A stretch of DNA of 64,000 nucleotides from NCBI GenBank assembly GCA_030431875.1, contig JAUIIG010000004.1:26212-90211 (forward strand), in the 5' to 3' direction. The stretch is from Alphaproteobacteria bacterium (lineage in GTDB: Bacteria > Pseudomonadota > Alphaproteobacteria > Sphingomonadales > Sphingomonadaceae). This document shows, one piece after another, positions 6,805 to 23,077 of the stretch. How positions within the stretch are numbered: position 1 is the stretch's first letter; every line of letters begins with the position of its first letter. Both the position numbers and the translations under genes were made by a program. The notes beneath the pieces are model-generated. The model saw only the letters and a list, made by a program, of their open reading frames with translations. It did no database searches and had not been told where the DNA came from.

Positions 6805-7356
6805 ATGCCAAAGGAGAATTCGATGAGCGAACAGGCCATCATTGCAGGCGGTTGTTTCTGGTGCACCGAAGCGGTGTTCAACGACGTGGTCGGGGTGACC
6901 GGCGTCGAAAGCGGCTATATCGGCGGCACGACCGAGAACCCGACCTACAAGGAAGTCTGCTCGGGCAGCACCGGCCATGCCGAGGCGATCAAGGTCACCT
7001 ACGATCCCGACACGGTGACCCTGGCCGAAATCTACGACATGTTCATGGGCACGCACGATCCGACCCAGCTTAACCGACAGGGCAACGACGTGGGCACGCA
7101 GTACCGCAGCGCCATCTTCCCGCTCGACGATGCCCAGCGCGTGGAAGCCGAAGCCGCAATCGCGCGGTGGAACGAAGGCCATGCCGGACAGACCGCCGTC
7201 ACCACCATCGAAGGCCCCGCCACATGGTATCCGGCGGAAGACTACCACCAGGAATACTGGGAAGGCGAAGGCCAGCGGAATCCCTATTGCTTGGCGGTGA
7301 TTCCGCCCAAGCTGATGAAGCTGCGCAAGAGCTTCGCCGACAAGGTGAAGAGTTGA
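6805..7356 (+). CDS. msrA: Peptide-methionine (S)-S-oxide reductase
   Basis: 183 aa; AIIAGGCFWCTEAVF, STGHAEAIKVTYDP, HDPTQLNRQGNDVGTQYRS. Confidence 0.96.
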   Translation: MPKENSMSEQAIIAGGCFWCTEAVFNDVVGVTGVESGYIGGTTENPTYKEVCSGSTGHAEAIKVTYDPDTVTLAEIYDMFMGTHDPTQLNRQGNDVGTQYRSAIFPLDDAQRVEAEAAIARWNEGHAGQTAVTTIEGPATWYPAEDYHQEYWEGEGQRNPYCLAVIPPKLMKLRKSFADKVKS

Positions 7357-7366
7357 TCCTGGTTTG

Positions 7367-7470
7367 CGAAGCCGCCTCCGCGGCTTCGTCCTCGCTAGAC
7401 GCGCTCCGCTATGCTACGCGCCCGCTGCGGGCGGGCGGTCGCCCTTGCAGACGGCTGACGCCGGCCGTCC
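7367..7470. repeat. Partial copy of dispersed palindrome-terminated intergenic element (one end module)
   Basis: Perfect 9-bp stem CGAAGCCGC-CTCC-GCGGCTTCG followed by TCCTCGC, then GCGCCCGCTGCGGGCGGGCGGTCGCCCT, which matches 19106..19334 (27/28). Confidence 0.75.
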
Positions 7471-7508: not shown

Positions 7509-8765
7509 TTAACCTCGGCCGGCGGCAGGTTTCCGCCATCGGGCGATGAAAAAGCCGTCCATTCCGCCGGCCTCGTTAAGACATCCCGGATCGGTGCGGA
7601 CCCAGCCTTCGGGCGTGGGTTGGATGCCGTCCGGCAAGTCTGCACTGGTAATTGGAAAGGGCTCGAGGGCCAGTTCGGCATCAATCCGGCGCGCCTGTTC
7701 TTCGCCCTCTTCGGTTTCGAGCGAGCAGACCGCGTAGACGAACACACCGCCCGGCTCGAGCCAGCCGGCGGCGCGGGCGATCATGGCGCGTTGCAGGTCA
7801 ACCGCTTCGGCGATCTGGCGCTGACCGATACGGTGGATCACTTCCGGGTGGCGGCGGCAGGTGCCGGTGGCGGTGCACGGCGCGTCGAGCAGGATCGCGG
7901 CAAACTGTTCTTCTGGCTGCCACTCCAGCACATTCTCGATCACAGTGCTTGCGTCGAGGCGCGTACGGGCGAGGTTTTCGCGCAGGCGCAACATGCGTCG
8001 CGCGTTGTTGTCGAGCGCGGTGACCTGCCAGCCCGCCGCAGCCAGCGCCATGGTCTTGCCGCCCGGTGCGGCGCAAAGATCGAGCGCGCGGCCGGCACCT
8101 TCTCCAAGCAGGTTCGGCGCGATCGAGGCAGCAATGTCCTGCACCCACCATGCACCCTGTTCGTAGCCCTGCAGGTCTTCAACGGCTGAACCACGCGGCA
8201 GGCGCACATGGCCTGCGGCAAGGCTGGTGCCGCCCAGCTTCTCCGTCCATTCGTCAGTTTCCGCGGGCACCTTCAACGCGAGGTCGAGCGGCGGCGGCAC
8301 GGCAATCCCGGCAGCGATGGCCCCGGCACGCTCGCCCCAGCGTTCCGCCACGGCGGGCGGCAGCGTGGGCACTCCGGGCAAGCTCACCTCTTGCCGTGTC
8401 AGCGTGGCGAAGACGCCGTGCGCCAGCTTGCGCGGTCCGCCGTCGAGCAGTGGCAGCGCGGTCGCCACCACGGCGTGCGGCGGGGTTTCCAGCCGCAGCC
8501 ACTGCGCCAGCATCATGCGCAGCACCATGCGCGCCTTTGCATCGTCGGGCAGCACCTGTTTCGTCGCGCTGTCGATCAGCGCATCGAGATCGACCAGCCA
8601 GCGCAGCACTTCTACGGCAATGGCGCGGGCCAAGGCGCGGTCGCTCGGCTGACCGAGGCTGTTCGCCGCCCCGCCCGCCTGCTCCAGCGTCTCGCCCCGG
8701 CGCAGCACGGCATCAAGCATCTTCAGCGCAGCGCGGCGCGGTTGCAGTCCGGGGGTCTTGGCCAT
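7509..8765 (-). CDS. 16S rRNA (cytosine-C5) methyltransferase, RsmB/Sun family
   Basis: 418 aa; NusB-like N-terminus, ALDLCAAPGGKTMALAAAGWQVTALDNNARRM, LLDAPCTATGTCRRHPEV, YAVCSLETEEGEEQ. Confidence 0.9.
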   Translation of the reverse strand: MAKTPGLQPRRAALKMLDAVLRRGETLEQAGGAANSLGQPSDRALARAIAVEVLRWLVDLDALIDSATKQVLPDDAKARMVLRMMLAQWLRLETPPHAVVATALPLLDGGPRKLAHGVFATLTRQEVSLPGVPTLPPAVAERWGERAGAIAAGIAVPPPLDLALKVPAETDEWTEKLGGTSLAAGHVRLPRGSAVEDLQGYEQGAWWVQDIAASIAPNLLGEGAGRALDLCAAPGGKTMALAAAGWQVTALDNNARRMLRLRENLARTRLDASTVIENVLEWQPEEQFAAILLDAPCTATGTCRRHPEVIHRIGQRQIAEAVDLQRAMIARAAGWLEPGGVFVYAVCSLETEEGEEQARRIDAELALEPFPITSADLPDGIQPTPEGWVRTDPGCLNEAGGMDGFFIARWRKPAAGRG

Positions 8766-19064: not shown

Positions 19065-19098
19065 GGCCGCTCCTGCCTTGGCGGGGGCGGCCTTTTTT
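19065..19098 (+). terminator. Rho-independent terminator of the Deg protease gene
   Basis: GGCCGCTCCTGCC-TT-GGCGGGGGCGGCC followed by TTTTTT, directly after the stop at 19043. Confidence 0.88.
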
Positions 19099-19105
19099 GG
19101 TTTTT

Positions 19106-19334
19106 CGCTCACGCCTCCGCGTGAGCGTCCTCGCTATGCGCGCAGCAAAGCTGCGCCCGCTGCGGGCGGGCAGTCGCCCTAGCGGGCCTGCGGCCCGTTG
19201 CCGGAGCCCGTGGGCTACAAAGCGCTGGCTTCGTCCGCGACCAGCGGACGACCGAGCGCGACTGCGCGACCCGCAGGTGCCGCGTAGCGTAGCGGAGCGA
19301 ACAGCGCCGAGGACGAGCCTGCGGAGGCAGGCTC
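19106..19334. repeat. Dispersed palindrome-terminated intergenic element, full-length copy
   Basis: Left end CGCTCACGC-CTCC-GCGTGAGCG-TCCTCGC; right end GAGGAC-GAGCCTGC-GGAG-GCAGGCTC. Colinear with the reverse complement of 22157..22397. Confidence 0.8.
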
Positions 19335-19389
19335 ATGAGACAAAAGATCTAGCGAGGACCCACCGACGGAGGCGGCCTCGACAAACGAA

Positions 19390-21651
19390 CTAATCCCTCC
19401 GCTCCAGGATCAGTGCATCGACGCCCCGCTTCCGGTCGGGCTTGTCGTCGGGCATCTGTCGCCCCGTGGCCCGTTCAAGGAAGTCGTCGCTGGCCGCTGG
19501 CGGGGCCTCGCGCGAGCTGGAGCCTGAACCGGACTGGGCCGGGCGCTCGGTATTGCGGCGCGGGTCAATATTCTCGCGCACCACGTTCTCGCCCTCGCCT
19601 TCGACGCCGAAGGCTTCGTCGAACCGTTCTTCGGTGCTGCGCGGCTCGACCAGGTTCCCCTGGTCGTCGATGTAGAAATAATAGTCGTCGTTCTCGCCGT
19701 AGTAGAACTCGTCATCCGGCTCGAGCTGCCAGGCCGGCAGCTGCAGGTCGGTGTCGAATTCCTCCACCGGCCGGTCGCGCACGGCATAGCGCATATAGGC
19801 GGCGAAGGCGCGCGCGGGCGCAGTGCCGCCCTGCAGGCCGGGCACGCGGCCATTGTCGTCGCGGCCCATCCAAACGCCGGTCGTGATGCCGCTGGAGAAA
19901 CCCACGAAATAGCCGTCGCGGCTGGAATTGGTGGTGCCGGTCTTGCCCGCCACGGGGCGTCCGATCTGCGCCGCGCGCCCGGTGCCCGTGGCCACCGCCG
20001 TCTGCAGCAAGTCGGTGATCCCGGCGGCAACATAGTCGGGAACCAGCGTGTAAGGCCGCGTCTCGCGGTGGCGGTAGATTTCCTCGCCGTCTGCCGTGGT
20101 GACCCGAATGATGCCGTAAGGCTCCACCGACTGCCCGCGCGCCGACACCGCAGCATAGGCGCGGGTCATGTCGATCAGCCGCACCTCGCTGCTGCCCAGC
20201 ACCATGGCCGGATAGGTAGAGATCGGCGAGGTAATGCCGAACCGCCGCGCCATCGACGCGACGTTGGAGAAGCCCACCTCGTTACCCAGCTGTGCCGCGA
20301 CCGAGTTCTTGGAATAGGCAAAGGCCGTGCGCACGTCGATTTCGCCGGCGTAGTTGCCGCCCGAATTGCGCGGCGACCAGCCGTCGATCGTCACCGGCAC
20401 GTCCTGCACGTGGTCATCGGGCCGGTAGCCCGCTTCGAGTGCGGCAAGGTAGACGAACAGCTTCCACGACGATCCCGGCTGGCGCATGGCATCGGTGGCG
20501 CGGTTGTAGTTGGAGGTGACGTAGTCCGTCCCGCCGACCATGGCGAGGATCGCCCCATCGCGGTCAAGGCTGACCAGCGCGCCCTGCGCGCCATCGGGGG
20601 CATTGGTCTGGATTGCCGTCGTCGCGGCGGCCTGCATGCCCACGTCGAGCGTGGTCCAGACCTCGATCGGTTCGAAATTGTCATCCGGCAGCAGCAGGTC
20701 GAGCTGCGGCAGCGCCCAGTCGGTAAAGTAGCGCATCGAATTCTGCCCGACATCCTCGCGCAGGTTCACCGTGTCGAGGTTCACTTCGCGCGCCTCAGCC
20801 GGATCGAGATCGCCGTAGTTGACCATCTGCTGCACCACCACGTTGGCGCGGTCGATCGCGCGCTGCGGATCGGCGGTGGGGGAATAGCGGCTGGGCGCCT
20901 TGACCATCCCGGCGATGATGGCCGCTTCCTCCAGCGTCAGTTCGCGAGCGGAATGGCTGAAGAACCGGCGACTGGCGGAATCGATGCCATAGGCCCCGCC
21001 GCCGAAATAGACACGGTTGAGGTAAAGCTCGAGGATCTGCTCCTTGGAGAAGCGCCATTCCAGCGCCATGGCCAGAACCGCCTCGCGGATCTTGCGATCC
21101 AGCGAGCGGTTGGAATTGAGGAAGACGTTGCGCGCCAGCTGCTGGGTAATGGTGGAGGTGGCGCTGACCTGCCGGTCTTCGGCCACGGCATTGTAGACCG
21201 CGCGGGCCAGGCCCATCGGATCGACGCCGAAGTGCGAATAGAAGCGGTGGTCTTCCACCGAGACCATGGCGTGCTTCATCACGTCGGGGATTTCGTCCGC
21301 CGTCAGCCACTGGCCGTAGCTTGGCCCCATTTCAACGATTTGCGACCCGTCGCGCGCACGCACGACGATGGTCTGCCCGTGCTGGCTCTCGCGCAGCGCG
21401 GCGTAGCTGGGCAGGTTGCGGGAAGCGAAATAGACCGCGGTGGTCAGGGCAATCACGCCGAGCAGGGCCGCAAAGGTGCCGATCAGGAAGAGGCGCTTGG
21501 TCCACTTCCACAGGCGCGACTTCCAGCCGCCCGCGCGTGCCTCGCGCTGACGCGCCTCCGAAGCCGCCTTTTGCGACCGGTACCCTCGCTTGTTGGAGCT
21601 CGTGCCCCGACGCCTGGCCATAAGCCGTCTTATCCTGTCAGCAGGCGCCAA
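19390..21651 (-). CDS. Penicillin-binding protein 1A family (transglycosylase/transpeptidase); start may be 21621
   Basis: 753 aa; VSVEDHRFYSHFGVDPMGLARA, TITQQLARNVFLNSNRSLDRKIREAVLAMALE, RQPGSSWKLFVYLAALE, GKTGTTNSSRDGYFVGFS. Confidence 0.94.
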   Translation of the reverse strand: MAPADRIRRLMARRRGTSSNKRGYRSQKAASEARQREARAGGWKSRLWKWTKRLFLIGTFAALLGVIALTTAVYFASRNLPSYAALRESQHGQTIVVRARDGSQIVEMGPSYGQWLTADEIPDVMKHAMVSVEDHRFYSHFGVDPMGLARAVYNAVAEDRQVSATSTITQQLARNVFLNSNRSLDRKIREAVLAMALEWRFSKEQILELYLNRVYFGGGAYGIDSASRRFFSHSARELTLEEAAIIAGMVKAPSRYSPTADPQRAIDRANVVVQQMVNYGDLDPAEAREVNLDTVNLREDVGQNSMRYFTDWALPQLDLLLPDDNFEPIEVWTTLDVGMQAAATTAIQTNAPDGAQGALVSLDRDGAILAMVGGTDYVTSNYNRATDAMRQPGSSWKLFVYLAALEAGYRPDDHVQDVPVTIDGWSPRNSGGNYAGEIDVRTAFAYSKNSVAAQLGNEVGFSNVASMARRFGITSPISTYPAMVLGSSEVRLIDMTRAYAAVSARGQSVEPYGIIRVTTADGEEIYRHRETRPYTLVPDYVAAGITDLLQTAVATGTGRAAQIGRPVAGKTGTTNSSRDGYFVGFSSGITTGVWMGRDDNGRVPGLQGGTAPARAFAAYMRYAVRDRPVEEFDTDLQLPAWQLEPDDEFYYGENDDYYFYIDDQGNLVEPRSTEERFDEAFGVEGEGENVVRENIDPRRNTERPAQSGSGSSSREAPPAASDDFLERATGRQMPDDKPDRKRGVDALILERRD

Positions 21652-21725: not shown

Positions 21726-22136
21726 TCAATCGCCTTGGTTTTCCTCCGGTTCGAACTCCAGAGCGGCGGAATTGATGCAATATCGCAGGCCTTCGGGGCC
21801 CGGACCGTCCGGGAAAACGTGGCCAAGGTGGCCTTCGCAATTGGCACAGACGACCTCGGTGCGCACCATGCCGTGCGACATGTCCTGGTTCACTTCGACC
21901 GCTTCAGCCGCCGCCGGGGAGGTAAAGCTGGGCCAGCCCGAGCCGCTGTCGTACTTCGCATCGCTCATGAACAGCGGCTGCCCGCACCCGGCGCACTTGT
22001 ATTCGCCTGCGGCCTTGTTCTTCTCGTACTTGCCGGTGAAGGCCCGCTCGGTCCCCGCCTCGCGCAGGATACGATACTGCTCGGGCGTCAGCTTCTCGCG
22101 CCATTCGGCTTCGGTGAGGGTGATCTTCGAGGTCAT
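21726..22136 (-). CDS. msrB: Peptide-methionine (R)-S-oxide reductase
   Basis: 136 aa from [80 protein letters not shown]. Confidence 0.96.
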
Positions 22137-22156
22137 GAGGGAGTTCCTTGTTTTAC

Positions 22157-22397
22157 GCACCCGCCTCCGCGGGTGCATCCTCGGTGCTGTTCGCTCCGCC
22201 CTTCGGGCTGCGCGGCACCTGTGGTCGCGCAGTCGCGCTCGGTCGGTCGCTCGTCGCGCCCGAGGCCAGCGCAAACATTTCCTGAAGCGCAATATCGGAT
22301 CGCCGCAGGCGAACCGCAAGGCCGACCGGCCGTCCGCAACGGGCGCGCAGCGAAGCGAAGCGCATCTTGCGAGGACGAAGGCGCGGAGGCGCCTTCG
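22157..22397. repeat. Dispersed palindrome-terminated intergenic element, full-length copy in inverted orientation
   Basis: Left end GCACCCGC-CTCC-GCGGGTGC-ATCCTCGG; right end GCGAGGA-CGAAGGCGC-GGAG-GCGCCTTCG. Reverse complement aligns along its length with 19106..19334. Confidence 0.8.
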
Positions 22398-22405
22398 CAA
22401 ACAAG

Positions 22406-23077
22406 TCACGCATTCACGTCCGCGTAGTGGCGTGGCGGGGGCAGGCCTTCCATCTTCTGCGTCAACAGCGGGGCAAAGCTGGGGCGGCTCTTCATCACGC
22501 GGTACCAGTTGCGGGCGCTGGAATGGTCGGACCATTCGAGGCAGTCGAGGTAATCGATCACCGACAGTTGCGCGGCCGCGGCAAAGTCCGCCAGGCTCAG
22601 CTGCGCCCCGCCCAGCCAGCGGTTATGGTCGACGAGGAAGTCGATGTAATCGAGGTGGTCGTGCAACACCCGCGTCGCCTGCCGCAGCACGCGGCTGTCG
22701 GGCGACTGGCGCAGGAACAGGCGCTTCTTCATCTTTTCGTGCAGCAGCGGCGCGGTGACATCGTAGTAAAGCGCATCGTCGAACAGGGCGACCAGCCGGC
22801 GGATTTCCGCTCGCGCCTGCGCCGAACCGGGCAGCAGCGGGCTCTTGCTTTCGACCTCTTCGAAATACTCGCAGATCGCCTGGCTGTCAGCCAGCGTCAG
22901 GCGGCGTTCCTCGTGGTAGAGGACCGGCGTCTTGCCTGCCGGGTTGCGACGGTGGAAGTCGTCGTCGTCTTCCCACGGATAGGCCAGCCGGAGCGCAAAG
23001 GGCACCTTCTTCTCGCTCAAGGCGAGCTGCACCTTGCGGCTGAACGGACAGAGCGGGAAATGGTAAAGCTGCCACAT
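22406..23077 (-). CDS. Glutathione S-transferase family protein
   Basis: 223 aa; [57 protein letters not shown]. Confidence 0.88.

Follow-up and report, generated by a model that had tools for sequence, protein, structure and literature searches.

The closest described relatives of the element analyzed here, in both behavior and host range, are the CGTC-REPs, which occur in sphingomonads without a dedicated transposase (Di Nocera et al. 2013, PMC3733652). That study defines CGTC-REPs by an unpaired tag (CGTC, TGTC or CCTC) on one end, a CCA-like tail, and complementary A-T residues at the first and second stem positions; their heterogeneous stems of 8 to 9 bp enclose loops of 4 to 5 nt, they form inverted dimers that often have structured spacers, and they lie within ~20 bp of the 3' ends of convergent or unidirectional ORFs, the same gene context that REPs favor (PMC3733652). 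Our element resembles them in stem length, loop length, stem heterogeneity, dimeric arrangement and location, but it has neither the unpaired CGTC tag nor the CCA tail: its CG is the outer pair of the stem, and just TC is unpaired, on the other side, followed by CTCG. Furthermore, its stems begin with C-G and G-C pairs (in >90% of A ends, one of the end types introduced below) rather than with A-T, and it has a constant CTCC loop, an inner TCCTCG flank, a T-rich outer border, a folded interior of ~190 bp and asymmetric A and B ends. The GTAG REPs and REPINs are likewise mobile non-autonomous repeats with an inverted hairpin pair and a 3'-end location, but our element has no unpaired GTAG or close variant of it at the hairpin foot (its consensus reads YTTG...stem...TCCTCG), its own genome has no RAYT, and its interior is much longer. 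Bacterial MITEs (Correia, ERIC, RUP and similar) are dispersed non-coding repeats of 100 to 300 bp with inverted termini, and our element is also short, non-coding, multi-copy and bounded by inverted termini; in contrast to MITEs, these termini are conserved in structure and not in sequence, no target duplication was detected, and no parental IS was found at the loci examined. BOX elements and BIMEs are modular, mosaic and intergenic as well, but, judged from their general description, their sequence and module types are apparently unrelated to those seen here, and the fungal mitochondrial double-hairpin elements, which are mobile and have two hairpins, belong to another type of genome, differ in sequence and serve as an analogy only. 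We found no earlier description of a family with these hairpin ends in the open-access literature searched, and an unnamed relative may be present within the figures of Di Nocera et al. (PMC3733652). Our best reading is that the element lies outside the described GTAG and CGTC REP superfamilies.

The element was recognized in a stretch of 64,000 nucleotides (the window) from a 2.96-Mb assembly whose genus we infer to be Aurantiacibacter. On direct inspection of the sequence, the five hairpins that the earlier note had placed at 7367, 19106, 19315, 22157 and 22376 are found at these coordinates (Table 1), and every arm pair that it named does pair: the CTCC/GGAG loop and the inner TCCTCG flank are constant in all five, and the stems differ from one another and pair perfectly. 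The window contains six matches to the pattern CTCC-N9-TCCTCG, where dinucleotide shuffles predict 0.16 and 0 of 100 shuffles reached six. The sixth match, absent from the earlier note, belongs to a chimeric copy next to the penicillin-binding protein (PBP) gene; the two arms of this remnant each resemble a different stem allele, and its 9-nt border adjoins the stop codon of that gene (CTA, 19390-19392). The half element at 7367, with its single hairpin end, lies between msrA (stop at 7354-7356) and a convergent rsmB-like gene (stop at 7509), and the full element further along is flanked by msrB, which starts near 22136, and a GST gene, whose TCA stop is at 22406-22408; these two genes are arranged in tandem on the minus strand.

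Table 1. Coordinates of the element and its parts in the window.
Position	Strand	Feature	Remark
7357..7468	+	Half element: border 7357-7366, hairpin CGAAGCCGC-CTCC-GCGGCTTCG at 7367-7388, A-type interior	Right limit approximate
19095..19105	.	T-rich outer border of the left (A) end, directly 3' of the T-run of the degQ intrinsic terminator	From sequence and border consensus
19106..19127	+	A-end terminal hairpin CGCTCACGC-CTCC-GCGTGAGCG, followed by TCCTCGC	
19128..19314	+	Structured interior: A flank TCCTCGC, further covarying hairpins, B flank CGAGGA	
19315..19334	-	B-end terminal hairpin GAGCCTGC-GGAG-GCAGGCTC, inverted, preceded by CGAGGAC	
19335..19346	.	A-rich outer border of the right end, ATGAGACAAAAG	
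19350..19389	-	Second A-type end, a remnant with unpaired arms CCCACCGAC / GCGGCCTCG	
22150..22405	-	Full element: B-end hairpin 22157-22176, A-end hairpin 22376-22397	

Measured from one outer stem edge to the other, a full copy spans 194 to 293 bp (median 238), and it consists of a T-rich border, a hairpin, TCCTCG, the folded interior, CGAGGA, a second hairpin and a mirrored A-rich border, in that order. Each terminal hairpin combines a variable 9-bp stem beginning with CG and a CTCC loop, and the T-rich border outside each stem (YTTG plus 4-5 nt; consensus T[AT]G-TTTG-TTTT[GT]) refines the earlier description. A ends continue with CTAGACGC and B ends with GTGCTGTTCGC, and a third end type, C, reads CCTCAAGCGCC. 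We observed that C-type ends (CCTCAAGCGCC-GGGCG...TTGGCTTTCCTCGC; e.g., at loci L046, L195 and L196) have the T-rich border in common with the other ends. Two-ended copies with A or B ends were A-B in 46 of 47 cases and A-A in one, in a sample where B-B copies would be underrepresented, since most loci were retrieved with a pattern for A ends. Like the copy at 7367, many others are half elements. Relative to shuffled sequences, 19095-19346 folds exceptionally well, with z -6.6 for RNA and z -6.0 for DNA, and its minimum-energy form is a four-way junction. The outer arm of this junction, in which the two outer borders would pair together, is not supported, as it showed no left-right covariation (5.25 of 9 pairs, the same as shuffled). 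Nor do the two ends of a copy tend to avoid having the same stem (3 identical of 47, against 1.6 expected). Two further arrangements were seen at single loci. In genome G014 (L079, about 1480-1775), a B end of 45 bp is tandemly duplicated with two different stems (CGCACCCGC and CGAAGCCGC). On the 3' side of purQ in G017 (L261, about 1969-2018), a solitary hairpin, CGCAGCCGC-ATCC-GCGGCTGCG, has a T-rich left and an A-rich right border and no TCCTCG flank; it could represent either a minimal unit or a scar left by excision.

Within its own genome, the pattern CTCCGCN{5,9}TCCTCG has 40 matches, a few of which are stemless and due to chance, compared to 3 for a reversed-pattern control. A covariance model of the A half-module identifies at least 29 A-modules in this genome. 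Within the taxonomic family, it detects the repeat in 40 of the 151 genomes and in 27 of the 91 genera, with 0 matches among ~189 genomes of the same class outside it. Named matches in the scan of our collection were mostly to Aurantiacibacter, Qipengyuania, Erythrobacter and Porphyrobacter. Plasmid and phage records gave no match with blastn, and Rfam 15 returned nothing at its gathering thresholds in the window except a tRNA, and no match at E<=1 in 19080-19360. The earlier note had named two outcomes that would refute it, namely copies no more frequent than in control sequence and covariation that vanishes as more copies are aligned; instead, the copies are far above the controls and the covariation persists.

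The position of the copies relative to genes, which were called with a home-made caller checked on the window, is strongly biased. Gaps that carry an element are convergent in 51, tandem in 54 and divergent in 4 cases, compared to 42, 239 and 119 for element-free gaps at the same loci (convergent versus divergent odds ratio 36, p 5e-19). Where an A end faces a stop codon, the commonest distance from that codon to the start of the stem is exactly 8-9 bp (38 of 86). The 3'-UTR location suggested in the earlier note is supported, with copies just past stop codons and between convergent or tandem genes. A stop triplet directly precedes the border in 34 of 76 stop-facing ends and in 0 of 26 start-facing ends; since start-facing borders never have one, the stop codon is the gene's own. 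We therefore rejected a stop codon supplied by the element as a general rule, the C-termini of GST and PBP also being intact; purQ is an exception (see below). Tandem copies occur in both orientations (19 sense and 17 antisense ends). At convergent 3' ends, intrinsic terminators are rarer with an element (8 of 102) than without (17 of 84; p 0.017), a comparison made across non-orthologous sites. The element itself was dismissed as an intrinsic terminator, given that its T-run lies 5' of the hairpin and TCCTCG lies 3' of it.

Several lines of evidence bear on mobility. At the degQ/PBP site, the element is found in 5 of about 30 genomes inspected (G000, G002, G005, G044 and G053), and most of the other genomes have a short spacer there, usually with a terminator. 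The carriers are scattered on a three-protein tree, sister genomes G041 and G045 are empty, and the element has opposite orientations in G000 and G005; the pattern would require roughly four gains or roughly ten losses, a polarity that rests on this small tree of three proteins. In the sister pair G045/G053, the element of G053 occupies the place of the terminator that G045 has kept. The own-genome purQ (L260) ends in ...ESVISSFAHASA, at a TGA within the terminal hairpin of an element, where its relatives end in ...ESVIGSLVGA, and at purQ of G002 a C-type end is nested within an A-type hairpin. Taken together, patchy site occupancy, nested insertion, purQ fusion and terminator replacement suggest that the element is probably mobile, and along with the copy number they lend weight to the earlier proposal of a MITE/REP-like non-autonomous element. 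Part of the patchiness could, however, be explained by losses. Direct repeats across the borders of 51 two-ended copies were no more frequent than in shuffled pairs, which is compatible with old copies or with a duplication-free mechanism, and no gene-carrying version, with an ORF between two ends, was found among the loci examined. The suggested link to a RAYT/IS200-type transposase is not supported in this genome: PF01797 (Y1_Tnp) has 0 matches in the own genome, which is 96% complete, with positive controls, and a match was present in one genome among 15 other members of the genus tested. At the msrB site, most genomes of the genus have an element at the same position, with end types (A, B, C) that vary by species. 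Here (L193-L222), the copies have a site-specific core, TATCGGTTCGC...GCGAACCGCAAGG, in common, with end types swapped around it; in several species the outer border provides the ribosome-binding region of msrB, and in L197 and L200 a different inverted repeat (GCGTCTTTGCGTG / CGCAAAGACGC, and GCGTCTCCGCGTG) takes the place of the element.

The stems vary while remaining paired. When A ends were anchored on the flank alone, 98 of 138 had a perfect 9-bp stem, and 40 distinct perfect stems, with the CTCC loop and TCCTCG flank in common, were observed in total. Across 36 diverse modules, 97.9% of cells are paired, both sides have changed in 102 cells compared to 27 in shuffled modules, and the covariation score is 0.401, against 0.098 when shuffled and 0.018-0.070 when slid; the interior helices covary as well. 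The collection scan left the middle five stem pairs free but fixed the CTCC loop and the GC and CG stem ends, which overstates the constancy of the loop and ends for its loci. To separate DNA from RNA, we considered the exceptions to pairing. Non-Watson-Crick cells in 93 A modules comprise 15 G-U, 13 A-C and 13 others out of 1,488, and G-U makes up 1.0% of cells compared to 5.6% in 17 tRNAs from the same loci, a control that is fair for G-U against Watson-Crick pairs only, because aragorn brackets allowed pairs alone. Selection on RNA tolerates G-U, and G-U is no commoner than A-C, which argues for maintenance at the DNA level; strong covariation without a G-U excess thus favors maintenance of a DNA palindrome over RNA selection. 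When A and B ends are read on the A-to-B strand, there are 26 G-U and 12 A-C cells outside the outermost pair, a weak hint of RNA-level constraint. The earlier note left open whether selection or mobilization acts on DNA structure or on RNA structure; with G-U pairs rare and no commoner than A-C mismatches, the answer leans towards DNA. Template switching between hairpin arms produces paired changes in one step, and among the one-step compensatory changes in rRNA that have been ascribed to it, loops of 4 nt are overrepresented (PMC8794818). Several unpaired hairpins, including the chimeric remnant beside PBP, look like two half-alleles joined within the constant loop, as a crossover between copies would give.

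We consider it reasonably likely that the element is a chromosomal repeat of the Erythrobacter clade that is dispersed, non-autonomous and REPIN/MITE-like, mobilized in trans, with stems kept by template switching. An enzyme supplied in trans would move the copies, recognizing their constant parts (loop, flank and border) together with the shape of the hairpin, and not the letters of the stem. New copies would survive mainly right past stop codons, the least harmful place for them, and could take over the gap between convergent genes. Template switching during replication would then copy a change in one arm to the other in a single step, keeping the arms paired and probably homogenizing the stems, and unpaired hairpins would be removed by selection or through the need for transposition competence. 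A side role in 3'-end formation or in blocking convergent transcription is possible. In a more specific version, which we regard as doubtful, a recombinase that reads shape, loop and flank places copies directly past stop codons, leaving the stems free to diversify.

The strong covariation, the exceptional RNA fold, the position just past stop codons, the scarcity of terminators at element-bearing convergent ends and the G053 copy standing where its sister has a terminator are also what a functional structured RNA of 3' UTRs would show, one that forms transcript ends, stabilizes mRNA or terminates transcription, with its pairing under RNA selection and its spread owed only to its usefulness there. 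We think this unlikely, as G-U is rare and not above A-C, the fold is equally exceptional as DNA, the T-run precedes the hairpin rather than following it, Rfam has no match even at E 1, the same gene pairs are patchily occupied, and tandem copies occur in both orientations. Membership in one of the tagged superfamilies, as a RAYT-moved GTAG-REP or a CGTC-REP, would account for the inverted hairpin pairs and the gene context, and CGTC-REPs are indeed known from sphingomonads as transposase-less repeats (PMC3733652); as the defining tag, tail and stem features are absent and the own genome lacks a Y1 transposase, we judge this very unlikely. Least probable of all, in our view, is that these are old, immobile, vertically inherited intergenic elements that are often lost, their seeming mobility arising from loss and from gene conversion between copies. 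The msrB copy, at a constant position in most genomes of the genus with varying end types, and the chimeric hairpins, which fit a crossover in the constant loop, agree with such a history; the occupancy of the degQ/PBP site would require about ten losses, and neither the opposite orientations at that single site nor the nested insertion and the purQ fusion sit well with it.

The element is thus a real, lineage-restricted palindromic repeat, and probably a mobile one. Its most general interest lies in the strong covariation that lacks G-U intermediates. Compensatory change is usually taken as proof of a functional RNA, and a probably mobile repeat with strong covariation and without the expected G-U intermediates provides a natural test set for the extent to which DNA template switching alone can generate covariation, as well as a caution for RNA discovery based on covariation. 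How palindromic repeats spread without a transposase, a question that Di Nocera et al. left for the CGTC repeats (PMC3733652), is raised again here, with occupied and empty sites already available to address it. If a shape-reading recombinase is at work, the family would represent a mobile system whose ends are coded by structure and whose preferred targets are 3' ends, and should copies take the place of terminators, they would also supply convergent gene pairs with new 3' ends.
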